Source of the DNA: Dehalococcoidia bacterium
Lineage (GTDB): Bacteria; Chloroflexota; Dehalococcoidia; Bin125
Length of the DNA: 36,054 nucleotides
Assembly (NCBI GenBank): GCA_022822375.1
Contig: JAJEBU010000007.1
Coordinates: 1 to 36,054 of the forward strand
Direction of reading: 5' to 3'
The notes under the pieces are model-generated. The model made no database searches. It had not been told where the DNA came from and saw nothing but the letters and a program-made list of their open reading frames with translations. The translations under genes and the position numbers were made by a program. This document shows positions 26,486 through 32,181 of this stretch, one piece after another (position 1 is the first letter of the stretch; every line of letters starts with the position of its first letter).

Positions 26486-27751
26486 ATGCCTGGTCCAGCA
26501 TCCAAGGCCGCGGCGATCATTGGCGCCGCCGAAGCGAACGACATCGGCTATCCGCAGACCCCGAAGTCGTCGCTCACCCTGCACATTGAGGCGATCAAGA
26601 ACGTTTGCGACTCGACCGGTATCCCGATCGCCGCAATCGACGGCATCTTCTCGGCCGGCTGGTCGCCGCAGATCGCCGAATATCTCGGTCTGCATCCCAA
26701 GTACATCGACACGACCGCAGTTGGCGGCTGCTCGTTCGAAATGCACGTGCATCACGCGCTCGCCGCAATCCACGCCGGCGCAATCAACGTCGCGCTCGTG
26801 ACGCATGGCGAGATGGGCTTTAGCCAACGGTTCACGCAGGGCAAGGGCACCGGGCGTCCGGGCGGCGCCGGCGACCCATGGGACCCGGCGACGCAGCACA
26901 CGATGGCCTACGGACTCGGTGGCGCGCCGACGGCTTACTCGCACGCGCTGAATCGGCACATGGCGCGTTACGGCACGACCCAGGAAGACTTCGCCGAGAT
27001 CGCCGTCGTCACTCGCGAGTGGGCCACGCTGAACCCGCGCGCGGTCATGTACCGCAAGGCGGGCGAGGGCGACCTGCCGCCGTTGGAGAAGGGCGAGTGG
27101 GGCGGCGGCAAGCGCGGCCACACCTTCGGCGGTCCAATCACCGTCGACACCGTGATGAACTCGCGCCCGATCTCCTGGCCGATCAAGCTGCTCGACGTTT
27201 GCCTGGTCACCGACCACGGCGGCGCGGTGCTGATCACCGGTCCCGAGATCGCGAAGACGTCGAAGACGCCGCCAGTCTGGATTGCCGGTGCGGGCGAGTC
27301 GATCTCGCACTGGAACATGCTCGAAATGGGCGACTTCACGCAGACGTCGGCCGGACGCTCGGCCGCTGCGGCCTATCGCATGGCGGGCATGGGACCCGAA
27401 GACATGGAAATGGCCATGATCTACGACTCCTTCACCGTGACCGCGGGGATCACGGCGGAGATGCTTGGTCTCGCGCCCGCGGGCGAAGGCTTCACGCTCT
27501 GGAAGGATCGCCACGCGGCCCCCGGCGGACGCCTGCCGATCAACACCAACGGCGGCGGACTCAGCTTCAACCACTCCGGCATGTACGGCATGCAGCTGCT
27601 GGTCGAGGCCTACCGCCAGCTGAGCGGGACCGCTGAGGACGGCGGCTTCTCGGGCGACCCAGGCAAGCAGACGTCGGCGCGCAGCTGCGTCGTCAACGGC
27701 ACCGGCGGCTCGCTCTCGACCACCGGCACCCTGGTGCTCACCTCCGACTAG
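26486..27751 (+). CDS. Thiolase-fold protein (SCP-x/lipid-transfer type)
   Basis: A 421-residue protein with thiolase fold. The nucleophilic Cys region is VGGCSFEMHVHHAL; the C-terminal half has NTNGGGLSFNHSGM, matching the NxxGGxxxxxHxxG catalytic-His region, and VVNGTGGSLSTT in place of the usual second-Cys motif. This type, paired with a DUF35 partner, is common in steroid and other acyl-CoA side-chain degradation, where some members act as aldolases rather than thiolases. So the reaction here may be C-C cleavage or condensation of an acyl-CoA (inference). An AGGAG site lies 7 bases before the ATG. A strong terminator follows. Confidence 0.88.
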   Translation: MPGPASKAAAIIGAAEANDIGYPQTPKSSLTLHIEAIKNVCDSTGIPIAAIDGIFSAGWSPQIAEYLGLHPKYIDTTAVGGCSFEMHVHHALAAIHAGAINVALVTHGEMGFSQRFTQGKGTGRPGGAGDPWDPATQHTMAYGLGGAPTAYSHALNRHMARYGTTQEDFAEIAVVTREWATLNPRAVMYRKAGEGDLPPLEKGEWGGGKRGHTFGGPITVDTVMNSRPISWPIKLLDVCLVTDHGGAVLITGPEIAKTSKTPPVWIAGAGESISHWNMLEMGDFTQTSAGRSAAAAYRMAGMGPEDMEMAMIYDSFTVTAGITAEMLGLAPAGEGFTLWKDRHAAPGGRLPINTNGGGLSFNHSGMYGMQLLVEAYRQLSGTAEDGGFSGDPGKQTSARSCVVNGTGGSLSTTGTLVLTSD

Positions 27752-27774
27752 CGGCACCACTTCGCCATCGCTCT

Positions 27775-27810
27775 CGAGCCCACTCTGATCGCAGAGTGGG
27801 CTCGTTTGCT
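27775..27810 (+). terminator. Rho-independent terminator after the thiolase gene
   Basis: A perfect 13-bp stem (27775-27787 with 27792-27804) closes a 4-base loop ATCG and is followed by TTTGCT. It lies 24 bases after the thiolase stop, ending the DUF35-thiolase transcript. Confidence 0.85.
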
Positions 27811-27858
27811 ATCTTCGGCTCTGGCAATCCGTAGCCGAATGCGGGGATGGGACCATCG

Positions 27859-28290
27859 ATGTCTGAAGCTGTTCCAGATCGGGCAGAGCATCTGCACAAC
27901 ACCAAGCAGGGCATCACGTTCATCTGGGCGCTCGACCTGCTCGCCATGATCGCCCTCGTTGCGCTCTTTGCGCTCAGCGACCTTGGTGGAGACGTCGTCA
28001 CCAATGAGGTTGACGCGCTGGCCGCAGGCAGCATCAATGGCATCGGACTGATCGCGATCGGCGGCATCAACGCCATTGGCGTGATCTCGCTCGGCATGGT
28101 CAACTCCGTCGGCGTGGTCGCGATTGGCGGTGTCAACAGCGTCGGCGTGATCGCGGTTGGCGGATATAACGCCACGGGGCTGGTCACGATCGGCGGGGTG
28201 AATAGTTACCCGTTTCCGCTGCAGGTCTGGAGCGCGACGCTGTTCGATTGGAATCCGAGAATCAAGCGAGCGGGTCTGGACCCCGCTTGA
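27859..28290 (+). CDS. Membrane-anchored protein with five 11-residue Gly/Asn repeats
   Basis: A 143-residue protein from ATG 27859; ATG 27847 would add four residues. A hydrophobic helix (FIWALDLLAMIALVALFAL) covers about residues 21-39. From residue 59 to 113 come five tandem units of 11 residues with the pattern [IVY]-N-x-[IVT]-G-[LV]-[IV]-x-[ILV]-G-[GM]. A sixth starts as VNSYP. Spacing and the hydrophobic/Gly/Asn pattern suggest a beta-solenoid or stacked-strand fold (inference). The tail contains Trp, Arg and Lys residues. No known family recognised and no catalytic motif. It stands alone between the thiolase terminator and the TPP riboswitch. Confidence 0.75.
   Translation: MSEAVPDRAEHLHNTKQGITFIWALDLLAMIALVALFALSDLGGDVVTNEVDALAAGSINGIGLIAIGGINAIGVISLGMVNSVGVVAIGGVNSVGVIAVGGYNATGLVTIGGVNSYPFPLQVWSATLFDWNPRIKRAGLDPA
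28033..28197 (+). repeat. 33-bp coding tandem repeat, five units
   Basis: Five consecutive 33-base units encode INGIGLIAIGG, INAIGVISLGM, VNSVGVVAIGG, VNSVGVIAVGG and YNATGLVTIGG. Units three and four are the most alike. The period is exact with no indels, and units differ mainly at synonymous or conservative positions, so the array is old or under selection. Confidence 0.85.
28269..28287 (+). terminator. Weak hairpin overlapping the end of the repeat-protein gene
   Basis: AGCGGG and CCCGCT arms enclose a 7-base loop and reach almost to the stop codon. The following sequence is only moderately T-rich. It may reduce read-through into the riboswitch region; the evidence is slight. Confidence 0.3.
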
Positions 28291-28322
28291 TTGCTCTGTT
28301 GTGTTAACATCAGGTCCATCAC

Positions 28323-28413
28323 CGATCCCGGGGTGGTCCGGCCGTGACATGCGGACTCGGGCCTGAGAACACACCCGCCGAACCTGATCCGGGTAATGCC
28401 GGCGCAGGGAGCG
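28323..28413 (+). ncRNA. TPP riboswitch (THI element)
   Basis: The conserved TPP aptamer blocks occur in order. CGGGGT is at 28329-28334, CTGAGA at 28363-28368, ACCTGATC at 28382-28389, GGGTAATGCCGGCG at 28391-28404 and CAGGGAG at 28405-28411. A closing P1 stem pairs CGATCCC (28323-28329) with GGGAGCG (28407-28413), with one mismatch. CTGAGA and ACCTGATC lie in the pyrimidine and pyrophosphate sensor arms. About 52 bases separate the aptamer from the thiD start, without an obvious terminator, so control of translation initiation is more likely than attenuation (inference). It is placed directly before an all-thiamin operon. Confidence 0.95.
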
Positions 28414-28465
28414 ACGAGCCTCTCAGACCGACAACCGACCACCCGCATCTGACAAGGATGACGGC

Positions 28466-29278: not shown

Positions 29279-29906
29279 TGTTGGCCGCCTGCACGTGATC
29301 ACAGACGAGGTGCTACAAACCAGGTTCTCTCTGGTTGAGCTGGCAGCAGCAGCAGCGGCCGGTGGGGCTGACGTCGTGCAGTACCGCGAGAAGCGCCAGG
29401 TCGCGACGCGGGAGATGATCCGCGCCGCCCACCTGATCAGCCTCACCCTGCAGCACACCGACACCGCGCTGCTCGTCGACGACCGCGTCGACGTCGCAGT
29501 TGCCGTCGGAGCGAGCGCGGTCCATCTCGGACGCGACGACCTGCCGCCTGAGGCTGCGAGGCGGATCCTGGGCCCCGATGCACTGATCGGCGGGACGGCG
29601 AACTCGGTCGAGGAAGCGGTCGAGGTTGCCAAGCAGCCGGTCGACTACCTCGGCGTCGGGCCCGTCTACGGCACGACGTCCAAGGGCGATCGCGCGGCGC
29701 CGATGCTCGGGCTGGAGCGATTTGCCGACATCTGCGCCGCAGTGGACAAGCCGGTGATTGGCATCGGCAGCATCACCGTCGACCGCGTCGCCGACGTGCT
29801 GGCTGCAGGCGCGTACGGTGTCGCGGTGCTCTCGGCGATCGTCTGTCAGGACGATCCGCAGGCGGCGTGCCGCGCGTTCGCCGACGAGATTGCGCGGGTG
29901 ACGTGA
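29271..29906 (+). CDS. thiE: Thiamin-phosphate synthase
   Basis: ThiE couples HMP-PP with thiazole phosphate to thiamin phosphate. The 211-residue TIM-barrel protein has DVVQYREK (usual QLREK; Tyr replaces Leu), LLVDDRVDVAVAVGASAVHL, and the pyrophosphate-binding VGPVYGTTSKGD. ATG 29271 overlaps thiD. The stop shares a base with the thiO start (TGATG). Confidence 0.95.
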   Translation: MTDVGRLHVITDEVLQTRFSLVELAAAAAAGGADVVQYREKRQVATREMIRAAHLISLTLQHTDTALLVDDRVDVAVAVGASAVHLGRDDLPPEAARRILGPDALIGGTANSVEEAVEVAKQPVDYLGVGPVYGTTSKGDRAAPMLGLERFADICAAVDKPVIGIGSITVDRVADVLAAGAYGVAVLSAIVCQDDPQAACRAFADEIARVT

Positions 29907-31033
29907 TGCGGACGGCAATCGTCGGCGGTGGAGTGGTCGGGCTGGCCTGCGCCTTCGAACTGGCGCGCCGCGGTGCAGAGGTCACCCTCTTCGAACGCGA
30001 GCAGCCGGGCGCCGGGGCGTCGACGGTCGCGGCAGGCATGCTGGCGCCGTCGTCGGAGCTCGAGAAGACGCCGCAGGTGCTCGTCGACCTCCAGCTGGAC
30101 AGTTTGCGCCGCTATCCCGATTTCGTCGCTGCCGTCGAGGCCGCCGGCGGCCAACCTTGCGGCTACCGCGACGAGGGCACCCTGTGGGTCTCCAGGCACC
30201 GCGACGACGAGTTGGAGCTCGACCACCTCTGCGCCATTCAGCAGGATCGCGGCATGCCCGCACGGCGGCTGAGCGGCCGAGACGTCCGCCAGATCGAACC
30301 GTACGTGTCACCGAGAGCGGTCGGCGGATTGTTGGTTGAGCGCGACACGCAGGTCGATCCGCGCCGTCTCGTTCCCGCATTGCGAGCTGCCTGTGAAGCG
30401 TCGGGCGTCGAGATTCGAGCCCAGACGGTCGTTCGCGCGATCGAACCGCGCCGCGGGACGCTCAGTCTGACGATTGAGAGCGACGCCGGCGCGTCCCAGT
30501 TCGAGACCGACCAGGCGCTGCTCGCGTCGGGTGTCTGGCTGGAGGACTGCATCGTGACGCCGCTGCCGACGCTCGGCATGCGGCCGATCAAGGGTCAAAT
30601 CGTGCACCTGCGCGGACAGCCGCTGGCCGACCGCGTGCTGCGCAACAGCGACATCTACCTGGTTCCGCGAGCAGACGGCGAGCTGCTGCTGGGCGCGACG
30701 GAAGAGGAGCAGGGCTTCGATCTGACAGCGTCAGCGGGCGGGACGCTCGACCTGTTGCGCTATGCCTTTGAGGTGCTGCCCGGCATCTACGATCTCGACT
30801 TGACCGAGATCGACGTCGGTCTGCGACCGGCATTCTCCGACCACATGCCTGTGATCGGTCCCACGAACGTGGATGGCGTGTTCATCGCCGCGGGACACTA
30901 CCGAGGCGGCATCCTTCTGGCGCCTGGCACCGCGCATTGGATGGCGGAGTTGATGATCAACGGTCAGGCCATTGACCACCTCGCGCCGTTCGGATACGAG
31001 CGGTTGCTGCAGAATCAGGAGGCGCCGGCATGA
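29906..31033 (+). CDS. thiO: Glycine oxidase ThiO (copy 1)
   Basis: ThiO is a flavoprotein oxidising glycine to the imine needed by ThiG for thiazole synthesis. The 375-residue protein begins MRTAIVGGGVVGLACAFELA, an FAD fold with GxGxxG. GAGASTVAAGMLAPSSE is the expected flavin loop. Late LRPAFSDHMPVIGPT and GHYRGGILLAPGTA match the D-amino-acid-oxidase-type family. A second related gene follows immediately, overlapping by four bases. Substrate could be glycine or sarcosine-like amines, but the operon supports ThiO. Confidence 0.93.
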   Translation: MRTAIVGGGVVGLACAFELARRGAEVTLFEREQPGAGASTVAAGMLAPSSELEKTPQVLVDLQLDSLRRYPDFVAAVEAAGGQPCGYRDEGTLWVSRHRDDELELDHLCAIQQDRGMPARRLSGRDVRQIEPYVSPRAVGGLLVERDTQVDPRRLVPALRAACEASGVEIRAQTVVRAIEPRRGTLSLTIESDAGASQFETDQALLASGVWLEDCIVTPLPTLGMRPIKGQIVHLRGQPLADRVLRNSDIYLVPRADGELLLGATEEEQGFDLTASAGGTLDLLRYAFEVLPGIYDLDLTEIDVGLRPAFSDHMPVIGPTNVDGVFIAAGHYRGGILLAPGTAHWMAELMINGQAIDHLAPFGYERLLQNQEAPA

Positions 31034-32181
31034 GCGCGTCATCCTGGGACGCCGCGGTGATCGGCGCTGGGGTGATTGGCCTGTCGATCGCGCTGGAACT
31101 CTCGCAGCGCGGTCGCCGCGTGATCATCGTCGAGCGCGACCAGCCCGGCTACCACGCGAGCCGCATCGCGGCGGGTCTGTTGGGCACCGCAGGTCTGCCT
31201 GTCGGTGAGCTGCCGGCGATGCAGCCTCTGAAGCTCGACAGCCTGCGACGCTACCCCCAGTTCATCGCCGACCTCGAATCGATCAGCGGCCGTGACGCGG
31301 GCTATCACGATGACGGCACGCTCAGGGTCGCGCGGGATATCGACGATGGGGAGCAGTTGGAATTGCTGCACGCCGACCGCCAGCAGCACGGCCTGCCGGC
31401 GCAGATGTTGACCGGCGGCGAGGCGTTGGAGCTGGAACCCAATCTCACGGGCGCGCTCGTCAGCGGTCTGCTGATCGAGGACGATGTGCAGATTGATCCG
31501 CGGCGCTTGATCGGCGCGTTGGTGTCGGCCTGCCTCGCGAAGGGCGTCGAGATTCGCAACGGCTGTGGGATCGACCGGGCATCGCGGAGCGATGACGGCT
31601 GGACGCTGACGCCAACCAGCGCGTCGTCCAGCACCGAGTCGATTTCGGCTGCGCTCGTGGTCGTCAGCGCAGGTCCGTGGTGCGACCGGATCCGTCGCAA
31701 CGCACCCGACGACGAACTAGGCGACGCACCGGTTGTTACGAGCGGCGTCGGACCGGTCAAGGGCCAGCTGCTCCGACTGCGCGGTCCTCACCTGCTCCAG
31801 CGGGTCGTGCGCACGCCTGGCGTGAGTCTCTCGCAGCGGCGCAACGGTGAATTGATTGTGGCCTCCAGCAAAGAGCCGGAGGCAGGCTGGGATCGATCAC
31901 CGACGGATCTGGCGCGGCGCACGCTGTGGGATCGCGCGACGTCGCTCGTGGCCCAGATCGGCGACTTTGAGCTCGAGGAGCAGAGCGTGGGGATTCGGCC
32001 GGCCGTGTCCGATCACTATCCGTTGATTGGCCAGGCCGGCGACGGCCTGTGGATTGCCACGGGCCACTATCAGCACGGCATTCTGCTCGCGCCGGCGACG
32101 GCGCATTACCTGGTCGAGGCGATCGAGCGCGGCACGGTGCCGGACGCGATCGCGTCGTTTGGAACGGAGGCGCGCCCATGA
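31030..32181 (+). CDS. Second ThiO-like flavin amine oxidase (paralog)
   Basis: This 383-residue protein shares the fold and many blocks with the upstream copy: GAGVIGLSIALELSQRG, DQPGYHASRIAAGLLG, DDVQIDPRRLIGAL, GIRPAVSDHYPLIG and GHYQHGILLAPATAHY. The sequence is clearly diverged, so it is not a recent copy. Its start ATG 31030 overlaps the first gene as ATGA. It may be a second glycine oxidase with different properties, or oxidise another amine within thiamin salvage (inference). Its gene overlaps thiS by four bases. Confidence 0.88.
   Translation: MSASSWDAAVIGAGVIGLSIALELSQRGRRVIIVERDQPGYHASRIAAGLLGTAGLPVGELPAMQPLKLDSLRRYPQFIADLESISGRDAGYHDDGTLRVARDIDDGEQLELLHADRQQHGLPAQMLTGGEALELEPNLTGALVSGLLIEDDVQIDPRRLIGALVSACLAKGVEIRNGCGIDRASRSDDGWTLTPTSASSSTESISAALVVVSAGPWCDRIRRNAPDDELGDAPVVTSGVGPVKGQLLRLRGPHLLQRVVRTPGVSLSQRRNGELIVASSKEPEAGWDRSPTDLARRTLWDRATSLVAQIGDFELEEQSVGIRPAVSDHYPLIGQAGDGLWIATGHYQHGILLAPATAHYLVEAIERGTVPDAIASFGTEARP

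Follow-up and report, generated by a model that had tools for sequence, protein, structure and literature searches.

A membrane-anchored protein family of Chloroflexota and Acidimicrobiia with 11-residue repeats and a predicted beta-solenoid fold

The parallel left-handed beta-helix of the hexapeptide enzymes, among them GlmU, LpxA, and the gamma carbonic anhydrases, is built of 18-residue triangular coils, and the beetle antifreeze protein of Tenebrio molitor, which is braced by disulfides and carries threonine arrays, has to our knowledge the shortest known solenoid coil, at 12 residues. The ice-binding protein of ryegrass, Lolium perenne (3ult), is a slim solenoid with about 14 residues per coil, and its ice-binding motif proceeds in Asn-x-hydrophobic steps. 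A coil of about 14 residues is also found in the left-handed beta-roll head of the trimeric autotransporter adhesins EibD and YadA, a short-stranded solenoid with Asn/Gly-rich turns. In EibD every subunit contributes two strands to each turn (PMC7247746, excerpt).

Here we describe a 143-residue protein encoded in the window, by which we mean the whole stretch of 36,054 nucleotides from a Dehalococcoidia bacterium that was analyzed (GCA_022822375.1, contig JAJEBU010000007.1). A single transmembrane helix is followed in it by five 11-residue units without gaps and then by a tail that contains the motif FxWxP. The model predicted for a repeat-only relative resembles the EibD/YadA head, its best structural neighbor, in short strands and Asn/Gly-rich turns, and 3ult in slimness, but the coil would span 11 residues rather than about 14. 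In contrast to the YadA type, the protein shows no sign of a stalk, barrel, or trimer and has an N-terminal helix as anchor instead; helix, repeats, and a 29-residue tail make up the whole chain, with neither a coiled-coil stalk nor a C-terminal beta-barrel anchor. It is hydrophobic with few threonines, unlike the plant ice-binding protein. The hexapeptide enzymes would have in common with the predicted fold a parallel left-handed solenoid (Z about 3-4.6), but they are catalytic and show no sequence match to the repeat protein. The Tenebrio protein has a short solenoid coil of the kind predicted here, although no search matched it.

The repeat gene and its site

The gene and the parts of its product lie on the + strand of the window as follows.

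27859..28290, + strand: repeat-protein gene, 143 aa, with a second in-frame ATG at 27847
27919..27981, + strand: transmembrane helix, residues 21-41, from hydropathy and an AlphaFold2 helix at residues 8-39
28036..28200, + strand: five 11-residue units, residues 60-114, gap-free; in order NGIGLIAIGGI, NAIGVISLGMV, NSVGVVAIGGV, NSVGVIAVGGY, and NATGLVTIGGV
28201..28287, + strand: C-terminal cap and tail, residues 115-143, with FxWxP (129-133) and R137

The original prediction had called a gene at these coordinates, with a single membrane helix followed by an exact array of five 11-residue units. The gene is as called, the helix is supported by the 19-residue hydropathy maximum (2.53, starting at residue 21) and the AlphaFold2 helix, and the five units run without indels, a frame shift of one residue giving the earlier pattern in all of them. 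The array is exact in its period but not in its units, which have 18-25 of 33 nucleotides in common pairwise, so that it must be old and without recent expansion. Within residues 54-118, 26 of 54 positions are identical at a lag of 11, a count that none of 100,000 shuffles reached (best of lags 5-24: mean 11.6, maximum 24), which rules out a chance origin of the periodicity. The reading frame is under purifying selection: against the closest relative (89% identical) dN is 0.062 and dS 0.283, or 0.032 and 0.158 for the repeats alone, and the differences at codon positions 1, 2, and 3 number 14, 4, and 27. This substitution pattern rules out a spurious open reading frame or the shadow of one on the reverse strand. 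Two long - strand frames of the window (27738-28187 and 27748-28374) mirror the 11-residue period and are themselves shadows of the repeat gene, not genes.

Of 15 genomes of the genus, that of the window included, 11 carry the gene. Variation in copy number between relatives, which the original prediction had put forward for checking, is absent among these 11 intact proteins of the membrane form, all with the same number of units, and present between the sub-forms described below. Most Asn and Gly positions are invariant in the alignment of the 11, with some Asn of the last units replaced, and W23 is invariant as well. The same holds for F129, W131, P133, and R137 (11/11 rows), W131 and P133 being kept also in a set of 14 (14/14). 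One genome (G012) has, besides its intact copy, a truncated second copy (L012, C41:200109-200294) in which the helix and first unit are followed by unrelated sequence.

The surroundings of the gene contain the following features.

26486..27751, + strand: thiolase-like gene (PF22691), upstream
27775..27804, + strand: perfect 13-bp hairpin in the gap between thiolase and repeat gene; a GC-rich hairpin is found in relatives too
27807..27815, + strand: putative extended -10, TGC-TATCTT, for the repeat gene, from the alignment
28300..28308, + strand: TGTGTTAAC box shortly after the stop codon of the repeat gene, 8 columns invariant in 11/11 loci
28319..28427, + strand: TPP riboswitch (RF00059); no other was found in the window's genome
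28466..29278, + strand: thiD (PF08543, E 2e-84), with which the downstream thiamine operon begins

Gene order is the same in all 10 loci compared, namely the window and L037-L045, with L036, a short contig, left aside: the OB-fold protein comes first, then thiolase, repeat gene, and thiD, then more thiamine genes. None of these neighbors points to a function for the repeat protein. The hairpin likely terminates transcription of the thiolase gene, and the -10-like box behind it suggests that the repeat gene is transcribed on its own. The TGTGTTAAC box (TGTGTTAA, invariant in 11/11) is the likely promoter of the thiamine operon, and it is present also at sites that lack the repeat gene. In three of the four genomes without a match (G004, G008, and G010) the TPP riboswitch comes directly after the thiolase gene and the repeat gene is missing; in the fourth (G011) only distant thiolases were found and the site is not judgeable. 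With both neighbors kept in three genomes that lack it, the gene is accessory and has been gained or lost at a single site. Farther into the thiamine operon, at 29906-32181, are two similar genes in tandem (375 and 383 aa, in one BLAST cluster), which we take to be probably ThiO-like oxidases; the pair is kept in 10/10 loci.

Forms and spread of the wider family

No described family had been recognized in the repeats, and the searches bear this out: the window protein and its relatives gave sub-threshold matches or none in Pfam, NCBIfam, PHROGs, and, by sequence, the PDB. Eight family members matched no adhesin-repeat family in Pfam and no hexapeptide or pentapeptide repeat profile in Pfam or NCBIfam. 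One relative scored 12.4 bits with Pfam GLTT (cut-off 21), which was taken as chance. Judged from titles and the starts of abstracts, no paper in the literature was recognized as describing such an 11-residue repeat family.

Profile searches matched 20 of 393 genomes of the class (E <= 1e-4) and 20 of 400 of the phylum (E <= 1e-5), while in the class around one Acidimicrobiia genome 2 of 296 matched, one of them the starting genome. A scan of contigs with the single window protein as query found nothing, and the scan based on an alignment gave 24 loci out of 52 candidate stretches. By reading, 13 of the 24 have the transmembrane-plus-repeat form of the window (10 in Chloroflexota, 3 in Acidimicrobiia), and the other 11 encode repeat-only proteins some 100 residues long that have about eight units; one of these proteins is incomplete. 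A third form joins about eight units to a conserved basic tail, and a fourth, with 16 readable loci (15 from the phylum search and one other, L082 and L098 being left out), combines a membrane helix with degenerate units and a WPxWP-containing tail. Hence, the repeats occur in at least four arrangements. Some genomes carry more than one member: an Acidimicrobiales genome has two full-length copies with helix, repeats, and cap (L046 and L047; 41-42% identical to the window protein), and two of Chloroflexota (G458 and G680) have two matches each at separate places (L081, L082, L115, and L116), those of G680 being one repeat-only form and one transmembrane form with a WP-rich tail.

The tree, which is unrooted and has support below 80 at 7 of its 11 inner forks, places the three Acidimicrobiia rows beside part of the window's genus, and this suggests horizontal transfer between Chloroflexota and Acidimicrobiia. 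One alignment omits L059, whose sequence has N or X, and another omits L028, whose protein is the same as that of L027. A phage or plasmid origin was ruled out, as no relative was found in viral contigs or in plasmids. The bin names of most of the 24 loci look like those of sponge metagenomes. MPNM, bin125, appears in a table of the Aplysina aerophoba binning paper (PMC5649159, excerpt), and, going by names, the jk18x and p16x bins would be from an Ircinia study (PMC9531527, excerpt), the RHO bins from Rhopaloeides odorabile, the SB06xx bins from Ircinia ramosa, and the PNGco bins from a Papua New Guinea seep study (PMC6742649, excerpt). The family spans two phyla, largely in genomes that look like those of sponge symbionts.

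Predicted fold of the repeats

The composition of the units is highly regular. Among 69 units of the membrane form, chosen by a regular expression that is itself biased toward the pattern, position 1 is Asn in 61, position 4 is Gly in all 69, and positions 9 and 10 are Gly in 65 each; small residues almost always occupy positions 2 and 7, and positions 3, 5, 6, and 8 are mostly hydrophobic. Charge is almost absent from these units (0.014 charged residues per unit) and wholly absent from the coils of the window protein, which have only small, neutral, or hydrophobic side chains.

AlphaFold2, given 11 rows, places strands in the repeats of the window protein (pLDDT 60.5 overall, about 68-78 in the repeats). 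For a repeat-only relative of 101 residues, modeled with 20 hand-picked rows, pLDDT is 86.5 and pTM 0.69, with strands at 8-16, 19-27, 30-38, 41-49, and 52-60, then pairs of short strands, in a step of about 11, the last units having two short strands each. Both models thus show strands in the repeats, not transmembrane helices, and the small beta-solenoid of the original prediction gains from the strands every 11 residues in the repeat-only relative and from the solenoids among its top neighbors, all of this being prediction. It should be noted that AlphaFold2 tends to yield confident yet unreal beta-solenoids for perfect repeats, an error to which its describers consider natural, diverged repeats less prone (PMC11795689, excerpt). 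The units in question are both diverged and uncharged, which helps against this bias, and the solenoid fold remains a predicted one.

Foldseek gave no match of the model at E <= 0.001 in the PDB. When its candidates were aligned with VIA-align, in which a Z below 8, or below about 13 for repeats, may mean a common arrangement only, the EibD head gave Z 9.0 (rmsd 5.5, 91 aligned), the ryegrass ice-binding protein Z 7.4 (rmsd 6.3, 89 aligned), and the remaining rows 4.6 or lower. The aligned ranges, 11-101 of the model against 160-276 of EibD and 12-100 against 5-118 of 3ult, place one 11-residue coil of the model on each target coil of about 14. In the viral structure library there was likewise no match at E <= 0.001; some predicted proteins of giant viruses resemble the solenoid model below significance (e.g., A0A5B8HWD0, probability 0.98, E 0.015).

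A proposed envelope module and its alternatives

We now put forward an explanation to which we give somewhat better than an even chance, namely that the protein is a single-pass membrane protein with an outer beta-solenoid of 11-residue coils and an FxWxP cap, serving as a structural or assembly module of the envelope and not as an enzyme. We propose that the N-terminal helix is an uncleaved signal anchor, with the solenoid most likely outside, and that each repeat would form one coil, probably of a left-handed beta-roll type. Asn and Gly would form the turns, large aliphatic residues would fill the core, the outer sides would be small and neutral, and the conserved cap would close the solenoid. 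With coils that are uncharged and bear only small, neutral, or hydrophobic side chains, the flat sides most likely pack on other copies of the protein or on the membrane. While the fold is predicted, we infer the handedness, topology, self-assembly, and structural role.

With regard to topology, the linker after the helix has no Lys or Arg and two or three acids in 13 of 14 sequences (one Lys and two acids in the remaining one), which weakly favors an outside solenoid, and the net charge of the N-terminal tail, 0 to -3, counts against it. In the repeat-only and basic-tail forms neither a signal nor a membrane helix is evident, which makes an outside location impossible for the family as a whole. 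A body prone to pack on itself or on lipid, together with a linker that weakly favors the outside, leads us to favor a structural or assembly module of the envelope. If the fold is right, the 11-residue coil would be among the slimmest of natural beta-solenoids and, in the window protein, free of cysteines and charges, which bears on minimum size and on protein design. The family, in several arrangements, would be common to Chloroflexota and Acidimicrobiia apparently living together in sponges and a concrete candidate for envelope proteins of hard-to-culture symbionts.

A surface adhesin resembling the YadA head, with chains that come together by one face of the solenoid and attach to a partner, which may be in the sponge host, would fit the EibD head as best structural neighbor and the occurrence of the full form with helix, repeats, and cap in two phyla that seemingly share a sponge habitat. 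We consider it unlikely, as the coils number only five or six, Pfam matched no adhesin repeat, a stalk and a beta-barrel anchor are both absent, and the repeat-only forms have no evident export signal.

The repeats could also be extra membrane helices, or a hendecad amphipathic helix lying on the membrane, since 11 residues make three helical turns and the 19-residue hydropathy within the repeats, at 1.9-2.0, could be called as membrane segments. This is distinctly unlikely for a sequence of 36% Gly plus Asn and 36% Val plus Ile, with a helix propensity of 0.91 against 1.16 for strand, no charged face, and strands in both AlphaFold2 models.

Proximity to thiamine genes raises the question of a membrane accessory for handling thiamine or its precursors. 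The single TPP riboswitch is next to the repeat gene in the window's genus (a riboswitch match was found in 21 of 22 family-bearing genomes searched, 20 of them with one only). In four genomes of genus g85 (L104-L107) the single riboswitch precedes the basic-tail form by about 4-5 kb on the same strand, with a thiamine-transport run between the two (a Thiamine_BP gene, then an ABC transporter with permease, NMT1 protein, and ATPase; Pfam names checked in L104). However, the repeat gene has a promoter-like box of its own, which lies upstream of the riboswitch; the remaining forms examined lie away from the riboswitch of their genome; and the link was spotted post hoc. Membership in the thiamine operon was set aside as the main reading, since the operon's own TGTGTTAAC box and riboswitch persist in three relatives without the gene, and the accessory role itself seems to us improbable.

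About equally improbable is a solenoid standing across the bilayer, its backbone bonds met between coils and its sides uncharged and hydrophobic. A stack of six coils, spaced about 4.8 angstroms apart, would be about 29 angstroms tall, which is as thick as the membrane core, and the longer repeat-only forms fit less well; we know of no membrane-spanning parallel beta-solenoid. An ice-binding protein is scarcely credible, for all that ryegrass supplies the second-best structural neighbor and the repeats share its Asn-x-hydrophobic steps, since Thr at position 7 in 4 of the 69 membrane-form units makes no regular outward threonine array and the named relatives seem, from their bin names, to come from warm-water or Mediterranean sponges.
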